Below, piece after piece: positions 1,042 to 12,915 of a stretch of 17,596 bases of DNA (the first letter of the stretch is position 1; each line of letters opens with the position of its first letter). Origin of the DNA: Paenibacillus sp. (GTDB taxonomy: Bacteria; Bacillota; Bacilli; Paenibacillales; Paenibacillaceae). The notes under the pieces were generated by a model. It saw only the letters and a list, made by a program, of their open reading frames with translations. It did no database searches and was not told the origin of the DNA. The position numbers and the translations under genes were made by a program. Location of the stretch: positions 1 to 17,596 of the forward strand of contig JAQSXN010000007.1 in the NCBI GenBank assembly GCA_029256665.1. Reading direction: 5' to 3'.

Positions 1042-1069
1042 AGGCATGGAGAGGTGCTCTTAAAAATGT

Positions 1070-1250
1070 AACGGACATGCTGGGCGTTAATTCAATAAAA
1101 TTGCATCAATCCGAAAAACAACGGACATGAGAGACTCTATTTGGCCGAAAAGCGACGAAGTGTCGCCATTTCCGAGCCAATAAGGTCTCCCATGTCCGTT
1201 ACAATTTTTATTAGCTCTAAATCGTGCGAATAGCGGCATTGGTGTCCGTT
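1070..1250. repeat. 181-bp four-unit inverted element A (head AACGGACA)
   Basis: AACGGACATG heads start at 1070 and 1120, and inverted heads (CCGTT) end at 1200 and 1250. The spacing is therefore 50, 81 and 50 bp. The inner pair can form a long hairpin: AACGGACATG-A-GAGAC at 1120 pairs with GTCTC-C-CATGTCCGTT at 1185-1200, and a central GCGAC/GTCGC stem caps it. A TATTT-like motif recurs about 18 bases inside most heads. Two further elements with identical geometry lie at 9130-9310 and 12609-12789. Confidence 0.85.
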
Positions 1251-1341
1251 AGCTTTGCGTCCGGGGGAGAGCCGGGTTGCTGTCCTCGCCCCGCGCCGCC
1301 GCTCTGGCGAACGCCGGTTAATGCCGCCGCCTCGCGCTGAA

Positions 1342-8910: not shown

Positions 8911-8962
8911 AGCGAATCCGATGTTCATGCCTCGCCGCATGGATATCGGATTCGCTTTTTTT
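8911..8962 (+). terminator. Rho-independent terminator after the GH20 gene
   Basis: A 12-bp perfect stem, AGCGAATCCGAT (8911-8922) with ATCGGATTCGCT (8945-8956), encloses a 22-nt loop and is followed directly by a T run to 8962. It starts 24 bp after the stop codon. The structured repeat begins at the very next base after the T run. Confidence 0.9.
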
Positions 8963-9077
8963 GAAATATAGGAAAGTATATTATTTTTCCATATTTTCTC
9001 TATATTTCTCGGATTGTAACGCGCTACGCCGCCAAAGGACGGCGAGAGCCGTTTCACCTTGCGATTTTTTGAACGGC
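8963..9077 (+). repeat. Structured intergenic repeat, copy 2
   Basis: This is the second copy of the element at 937-1041. Its dyads are GAAATATAG (8963-8971) with CTATATTTC (9000-9008), CGCCG (9027-9031) with CGGCG (9040-9044) around a CCAAAGGA loop, and GCCGTT (9048-9053) with AACGGC (9072-9077). An additional GGAAA/TTTCC pairing is possible inside the first dyad. The last dyad has a 9-base longer loop than copy 1, including a T6 run, yet the closing AACGGC is kept. Confidence 0.75.
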
Positions 9078-9129
9078 GTGAGCTTGACTCCGAAAATGGC
9101 TGGTCGTTCGTTGTTTTCCGCCAGCGTCT

Positions 9130-9310
9130 AACGGTTGCCATTAAGCTTATTTCGCCTCAAACGCCACTTCCCGAATTGTAACGGTTGCGACCGAGCTTAT
9201 TTCATCATAAACAGCCCCATTTCTCCGTTTTGGTACCGTTTAAGCTCCGTCACAACCGTTACAATTCCAAACTAGCCCAAAAGCCGCATTTAATCGCACT
9301 GACAACCGTT
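9130..9310. repeat. 181-bp four-unit inverted element B (head AACGGTTG)
   Basis: Heads AACGGTTGC start at 9130 and 9180, and inverted heads CAACCGTT end at 9260 and 9310, again giving 50-81-50 spacing. CTTATTT occurs at the same offset (base 17 of the unit) in both direct units. The inner pair matches over about 20 of the first 23 bases, so it can form a long hairpin with a sequence different from element A. All four heads carry TTG in place of the ACA of elements A and C. Confidence 0.85.
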
Positions 9311-9447
9311 ACAGGTTCTAACGCCACCAGCCCCCCCCCCGGTCAAGCCGCCGCTAAACGGATGCGTTTTCTCCACTCCTGTCCAATCGATAGAAGGCCT
9401 AAGAGCATATACATAGGAGAACATCGCTTATACAGCTTTTCGAGAGT

Positions 9448-12517: not shown

Positions 12518-12608
12518 GGAGTTTGGGAAACGATGCATAACCTCAAACCGTGGATAACGTGACCCTACATACAAACCAAGGGCTTGTCCATAATCGGATT
12601 AAAAATCT

Positions 12609-12789
12609 AACGGACATCAGAAGCTCTTAGAGCCCGTTTTTTCCACATGTATCCCTGTAACGGACTGCAGAACCTTTATTTAACCGAAATGAGACTAATC
12701 GTCGTTCGAGTGGAGCAAATAGAGTCGCCTGTGTCCGTTGAAATTTTAAAACACAGAAAAAGCGAGGAATAGCATCCCTGTTGTCCGTT
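12609..12789. repeat. 181-bp four-unit inverted element C (head AACGGACA)
   Basis: AACGGAC heads start at 12609 and 12659, and inverted CCGTT heads end at 12739 and 12789, giving the same 50-81-50 spacing as elements A and B. TATTT occurs at base 19 of the second unit and at base 19 of the third unit read in reverse; the fourth reads TATTC at that place. Inner pairing beyond the heads is poorer than in A and B. The flanks TCT and AGA extend the outer dyad by three bases. Confidence 0.83.
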
Positions 12790-12915
12790 AGAGGTTTGCT
12801 CACGTCATTGTTTTCAAGCACAGAGAGGAGATTTTGTTCTGTCGAAATCATCAAATGTTTAATAACGATGGAAATAGGTGTACTAATTCACAAAACCCTA
12901 TAGAGGAGCGATAAT

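Follow-up and report, generated by a model that had tools for sequence, protein, structure and literature searches.

Elements in the window

The window, that is, the whole stretch of 17,596 nucleotides of Paenibacillus DNA analysed here, carries three elements of 183 bp. All three are found as a sequence-only reading of the window had claimed, each with four AACGG heads, two direct and two inverted. Their coordinates are as follows.

1069..1251, no strand: element 1, AC class, 183 bp
1069-1074 (+), 1119-1124 (+, CAACGG), 1196-1201 (-), 1246-1251 (-): heads of element 1
1069..1092, + strand: example of a unit of about 24 bp, with TAACGG head, specificity letters at 7-9 and 17, and [C/T]TA at 19-21
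9129..9311, no strand: element 2, TT class, 183 bp
9129-9134 (+), 9179-9184 (+), 9256-9261 (-), 9306-9311 (-): heads of element 2
12608..12790, no strand: element 3, AC class, 183 bp
12608-12613 (+), 12658-12663 (+), 12735-12740 (-, CAACGG), 12785-12790 (-): heads of element 3

The outer ends of the AACGG heads fall exactly at offsets 0, 50, 130 and 180 in all three elements. With the conserved T included, the four-unit plan reads TAACGG-N44-TAACGG-N71-CCGTTA-N44-CCGTTA, 183 bp in length, and CAACGG replaces TAACGG at one inner head each in elements 1 and 3. The heads in the window are beyond chance, since TAACGG is observed 15 times while 5.8 occurrences are expected.

Other repeats are present nearby. 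A second shared module lies upstream of elements 1 and 2 (931-1034 and 8957-9061), with 85% identity over 81 bp and 89% over 27 bp. To the right of element 1, at 1355-1420, two 29-bp copies (97%) are found with a spacing of 37 bp. Repetitive reading frames likewise lie between elements in the P. faecis clusters L130 and L180.

Copy number, spacing and distribution

The assembly of the window's own genome has 4.14 Mb in 630 contigs and is 64% complete. A search with the whole pattern (at most 3 mismatches in 24 positions) finds 44 copies in it, and the reversed-pattern control finds 0. We also used a half-element profile, built from a gapless alignment of 88 halves and leaving the total length free. 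It recognises at least 142 half-elements, with 150 of 524 first-look candidates scored. These halves pair into at least 61 elements, of which 50 are 183 bp long, eight 182 bp and three 184 bp; the earlier observation that spacing is kept far better than sequence is borne out. Another 20 halves are without a pair. Several of these are at contig ends, three (L250, L251 and L255) turned out to be complete elements, and three (L248, L252 and L258) are neither. Among the halves of this one, 64% complete genome, pairing is at a distance of about 183 bp, and no long-spaced pair enclosing cargo is recognised; on this sample, transposon ends around a cargo were considered and set aside.

In the pooled loci, most of which had been chosen by the pattern, neighbours of the same direction are spaced by 50 bp 213 and 211 times, by 51 bp four times and once, and by 49 bp once. 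The centre spacing is 82 bp in 198 cases, 81 bp in seven, and 80 and 83 bp in one each. In nine further pooled cases a spacing of 131-132 bp marks a missing inner unit.

Within the genus, 21 of 51 genomes carry elements (at most 2 mismatches). In the family they occur in 96 of 295 sampled genomes and 12 of 19 genera, with a maximum of 166 copies (at most 1 mismatch). The class scan finds them in 11 of 398 genomes: 9 of the 37 of the own family, one of another family of the order and one of another order. Reversed-pattern controls for the three scans give 0 among the matches listed. In named genomes at least 116 stretches carry the pattern, and the 80 listed belong to Paenibacillus, Cohnella, Fontibacillus, Saccharibacillus, Gorillibacterium or Paenibacillaceae MAGs. 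Few other copies or a widely varying spacing, either of which had been expected to speak for coincidence or recent duplication, are not what these scans find; copies between genes are numerous, both here and in related genomes.

Some special arrangements were also seen. Four consecutive elements at L164 2600-3544 follow an exact 254-bp period, the 71-bp gap between them being equal to the inner gap. The IMG/VR viral contigs L238 and L239 contain one exact element each. The P. timonensis group has another high-copy repeat (L200 5645-5915; G054 C14 128129-129490), partly tandem in steps of about 184 bp.

Unit anatomy and helical phasing

In each unit the TAACGG head is followed by two to three specificity letters; further along, G is conserved at position 15, position 17 is C/G, and [C/T]TATT occupies 19-23. 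The TATTT-like motif that had been noticed at base 19 holds up in the 88 half-elements: unit position 20 is T in 98% of them, and position 21 is A in 95%. The unit core is followed by A/T-rich patches about every ten bases. The centre of the element is without conserved letters, and conservation ends about 2 bp beyond the outer heads.

Before the phasing, covariation and orientation analyses, similar elements were removed by set thresholds. The A/T content of 156 non-redundant elements is periodic at 10.1 bp (power 3.49, median 0.11) and its maximum sits at the dyad. The period is still 10.1 bp when the heads and positions 19-24 are masked (power 0.89 versus 0.12).

The four units of an element share their specificity letters. 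Agreement at position 7 is 0.89 within elements versus 0.59 between elements, and at position 8 it is 0.91 versus 0.46. Positions 9, 17, 21 and 22 also agree within elements well above the between-element level. In the own genome two specificity classes are found, AC and TT. G096, G622 and part of G542 have CTTA in place of CTAT at positions 19-22 of the unit, with letters alike across the displayed units of an element, and thereby show a further specificity class. In G051 and G052 of the P. timonensis group, a doubled ATTTCCC motif in one outer unit makes the element polar. The orientation of these polar elements relative to transcription was 22:6 at first; we claim no bias, because removal of near-copies leaves 10:3 (p 0.09).

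Tests for a folded structure

The sequence-only reading had inferred selection on spacing or fold and had proposed a covariation test. The fold did not survive this test. Column correlation over the whole set mostly reflects the split into two classes. Watson-Crick covariation between the arms is near the shuffled level in every scheme tried (within class, similar copies removed), with z from -1.7 to +1.8 within class. RNAalifold predicts no pair in half-elements, and Rfam has no match over the window at gathering scores. An RNA or cruciform structural element, to which the inverted layout and the ability of the heads to pair would be suited, is rejected on these three results, and we regard it as extremely improbable. 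Four sites that share a motif and vary independently, as seen here, are what protein binding predicts.

Genomic context, selection and spread

None of 215 pooled elements overlaps a predicted gene. Among 145 elements with both neighbours known, 93 gaps are tandem, 42 convergent and 10 divergent; element-free gaps are 58 tandem, 13 convergent and 26 divergent (convergent against divergent, p 9e-6).

Orthologous elements in two P. timonensis genomes show that the part of the earlier claim concerning selection stands. We compared 15 element pairs with flanks 78-92% identical, scoring those motif columns that are not used to find elements. Changes occur in 30 of 450 cells of motif columns (6.7%) versus 155 of 600 cells of uninformative columns (25.8%, p 5e-17). 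Of the 28 flanking stretches of 60 bp next to the elements, only 3 can be aligned without gaps at 70% identity or higher. Since motif columns change about four times less than uninformative ones, the resident copies are under purifying selection. This set says nothing on spacing, because both members of each pair had been found by spacing. It leaves out two pairs: L285/L287, in which one spacing is 51 bp in one species, and L321/L341, a locus beside the partner gene described below, at which all four heads change from AA to AC and the element is 62% identical (identity 0.62). Selection in place requires a role for the resident copies, which may be one such as docking or chromosome architecture.

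The elements also reach new sites. The related genome G045 is syntenic with the window; it lacks elements 1 and 2 at the corresponding sites, and it carries an element at a site that is empty in the window. One element of the P. timonensis group occurs in three species and is absent from two, the missing stretch being larger than the element. Near-identical copies with unrelated flanks exist within single genomes (for example L174 4761/5633, L133, L195/L203), and their similarity stops at a distance of 0-17 bp from the outer heads. In other near-identical pairs the similarity runs on into one flank or both, for at most about 75 bp, so that what moves can be more than the 183 bp alone. In a subfamily of P. 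agaridevorans (G001; L104-L111) the 183-bp core is inside a larger unit of 283 bp, which has different inverted ends (GGCTGTCGATTCATTGTG) and is only partial in several copies. Unit exchange at a head has one clear case, unit 1 of L111 in this species, and a scan of 215 elements gives no clear case of further shuffling. Target duplication was sought in 44 own-genome elements: no excess identity appears at any shift, although such a signal could be lost in old insertions.

The probable partner gene

A gene of about 218 codons, here called the partner gene, lies between close element pairs in two species. It is absent from the 14 largest clusters of recurrent neighbours, presumably due to the codon-usage filter. 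By tblastn, relatives are found in 18 loci, several of them overlapping; an element is present in 10 of the 18, most of which had been fetched for their elements. A protein profile, built from element-adjacent proteins, matches 242 of 295 family genomes at 1e-20 with 1-10 copies each. Among loci picked by protein score, some of them from close relatives, an element is found in 26 of 30 and then 17 of 20, that is, 43 of 50. Six Markov resamplings of these 50 loci contain 0 elements. Of 18 control stretches, four carry an element, as many as the window and G045 were known to contain.

The element has a preferred side. For 50 loci with an element within 1.2 kb of the gene, drawn from L353-L398 and L411-L430, the nearest element is on the 3' side in 47 and within 450 bp in 46. 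Several loci have elements on both sides. In the own genome, one partner gene (G000:C371) is flanked by two AC-class elements, and the second strong gene (G000:C88) has no element within the 3 kb taken.

Taking a strong protein match as 1e-75, the protein is present in 82 of 96 element-bearing genomes versus 80 of 199 element-free ones (p 5e-14). It is found in 70 of 74 genomes with at least five elements versus 92 of 221 others. The 14 element-bearing genomes without a strong match include G352, G463, G490 and G637, which have at least five elements. In 361 genomes of the class outside the family, only G387 and G096 contain elements, and again only these two contain protein matches below 1e-100. 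About 70 bp separate gene and element in G387, and in G096 the distance between the gene and a four-unit element is 19 bp.

The class of the nearest element was placed on two protein trees, similar proteins having been removed from both. On a tree of 34 proteins, with L275 (28.8% identity) left out, it changes 9 times versus 19.8 times when shuffled; with 57 proteins below 95% identity, there are 17 changes versus 34.4. In both cases 0 of 200 shuffles are as low. Seven AA-class proteins from several species form one clade of the smaller tree, with one AA protein elsewhere, and on the larger tree the AC class is not a single clade. Protein lineage follows the class of the adjoining element, a coupling that linked co-inheritance would also give.

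Weaker relatives of the protein occur in other families of Bacilli (ten loci, L400-L409), and no four-unit element was found near them. The protein is absent from the phage collection, and the viral contigs have no relative of it. In the plasmid collection a P. cellulosilyticus replicon gives one match, at 31%. PADLOC gives no match to the partner, and PHROGs gives weak matches to the winged-helix part of one of two proteins.

Deviant geometry in genus g3

In genus g3 the strong protein is present in 17 of 43 sampled genomes and the TAACGG element in none. In 7 of 8 g3 loci an unsupervised search for any four-fold head finds TAACGAAC/T next to the gene, spaced 50-92-50 or, in one of them, 50-91-50, with scores of 36-42 versus 31-34 in shuffled loci. 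These heads are TAACGAA, and position 20 of the units still shows TATT-like letters. Their centre spans 92 bp (91 in one genome) versus the usual 82, about ten bases more, which is one helical turn. At the eighth locus, L394, the best match is another head at 50-91-50, and the gene-side element was seen by inspection. All eight loci are one orthologous locus, thus the change counts as one event. The locus of a truncated gene, L399, has 50-77-50, off the ten-base grid. Other four-fold heads in partner loci are TAAGGAA at 50-91-50 (L394 840), TAACGCT (L385 2434), ATGCGGAC at 50-77-50 (L399 976) and GGCGGATA at 52-75-52 (L404 241).

The probable partner protein

Seven residues are invariant in 53 members: W44, L54, E59, D62, D71, E84 and H91. 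In Pfam, DUF559 matches 10 of the 53 weakly and REase_MTES_1575 nine. No Pfam or NCBIfam model is above cut-off in three members checked, and there is no match of the protein to a transposase family. A structure model from 53 sequences reaches pLDDT 88 and pTM 0.67 (an earlier one from 9 sequences, pLDDT 55). Its order of strands and helices suits a restriction-endonuclease-like core, followed by a C-terminal winged helix. The fold search matches the winged helix well and confirms this domain in the model. For the N-terminal domain it returns weak matches, including viral DUF559, restriction and homing endonuclease models; this fold is weakly placed because the Protein Data Bank fold searches are filled by winged-helix matches. 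Solved structures found by sequence are weak matches as well, mostly to winged-helix parts. The modelled N-terminal domain gives a strong lead to, though no proof of, a PD-(D/E)XK-type nuclease fold, and the protein may cleave DNA. The partner protein is similar to DUF559 and REase_MTES_1575 in the weak matches and in the invariant E59, D71, E84 and H91, but it adds the C-terminal winged helix and the neighbouring DNA element.

Discussion

The explanation that we favour, held as a whole with reasonable though not high confidence, has several parts. The element would be a double-stranded DNA platform with four like asymmetric protein sites, in which two direct site pairs, 50 bp apart, face one another across the dyad. 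Four protomers, of the partner protein or of one like it, would occupy the sites, the DNA would bend or wrap so as to follow the A/T-rich patches every 10.1 bp, and 50-82-50 would thus be a helical-phase requirement. We infer the wrapping of DNA in the element. The binder would most likely be the nuclease-like/winged-helix protein of about 218 aa, whose gene stands beside a parent element, and the dispersed copies would be its targets in trans. It is quite probable that this candidate binds the elements. Spread would proceed through DNA cutting by the partner, as copying along a homing-like route without target duplication, and the spread copies would then be kept in place by selection for binding. 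That the putative nuclease drives the spread is, on the sequences at hand, an evenly balanced proposition. Nuclease-primed copying would account for the absent target duplication, and a copying mechanism that measures length, which had also been raised from the window, is possible. Only tentatively do we picture a nucleosome-like, phase-locked particle of four nuclease/winged-helix copies on 183 bp. Here the protein may copy the element by cutting without target duplication, the residents may be selected docking sites, and specificities of protein and element may co-evolve, a change of the centre by one helical turn being among the results.

Selection in place, the intergenic and mostly non-divergent position and the helical phasing would suit a global chromosome-architecture protein, unrelated to the partner, that docks on the elements, with the nuclease-like gene only using the elements as a neighbourhood for regulation or insertion. 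The 14 of 96 element-bearing genomes without a strong partner match also fit this. However, the linkage of gene and element in 43 of 50 loci, the class coupling and the restriction of out-of-family elements and of protein matches below 1e-100 to the same two genomes argue against it, and we consider it unlikely. A purely selfish, non-autonomous MITE-like element, moved by the partner protein and without a role once inserted, would explain the near-identical copies at unrelated sites, the empty sites in relatives and the avoidance of divergent (promoter) gaps. It would not explain the roughly four-fold sparing of motif columns in orthologs, and target duplication was not found in 44 elements; this reading seems to us distinctly unlikely. 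The elements could also be strong DNA-gyrase sites, functionally analogous to BIME-2. The E. coli gyrase motif has G/C phased over more than 130 bp with dyad symmetry and often lies downstream of genes (PMC6379681), and the element resembles it in this long, dyad-symmetric, phased pattern. But its period is 10.75 bp with a central cleavage motif (PMC6379681), whereas the element has a period of 10.1 bp, four specific sites with sharp sequence-specific heads and an unconserved centre, which makes gyrase sites a very improbable explanation.

We return to the favoured explanation, a protein-binding platform spread with its nuclease-like partner, and compare it with known systems. No match to a named element has emerged, as the sequence-only reading had also stated, and we found no description of the four-unit element in the open-licence literature. 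Bacterial MITEs such as bcr1, ERIC and RUP (named in PMC3733652) are short, non-coding, mobile and intergenic with inverted ends. The element is alike in these features and in reaching new sites, with its unrelated flanks and empty sites, but differs in lacking target duplication (44 elements) and in being under selection in place. An autonomous copy, in which these ends would stand far apart, was not seen in the own genome (64% complete).

The nearest comparison concerns dispersed intergenic repeats with a resident gene. REP/BIME repeats together with RAYT (TnpA-REP) genes form the so-called REPtrons, in which each repeat is an imperfect palindrome that folds into a hairpin and RAYT is a Y1/HUH tyrosine transposase. 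Like them, the element is dispersed between genes, has direct and inverted units at set spacing, and flanks a resident gene (an element in 43 of 50 partner loci). The hairpin unit is not seen, as there is no covariation and no RNAalifold pair in half-elements, and in place of a Y1/HUH transposase the gene encodes a nuclease-like protein with a winged helix. The element differs further in having its sites on a helical grid. Since every known kind tested failed a defining feature, we set the element apart as a new kind. Filed by its logic rather than its parts, it may be regarded by analogy as a distant variant of the REPtron idea.

The finding means that a repeat without a name fills dozens of intergenic regions across many members of a large bacterial family. 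It carries a readable geometric code: the sequence drifts while four sites, a shared specificity and the helical phase stay. Its candidate partner protein has no name in the curated libraries searched. The system opens the way to tests of a protein that would measure DNA in helical turns, and of a repeat and a nuclease-like protein that may change specificity jointly. It also makes it possible to test whether an element can spread and at the same time serve its host.
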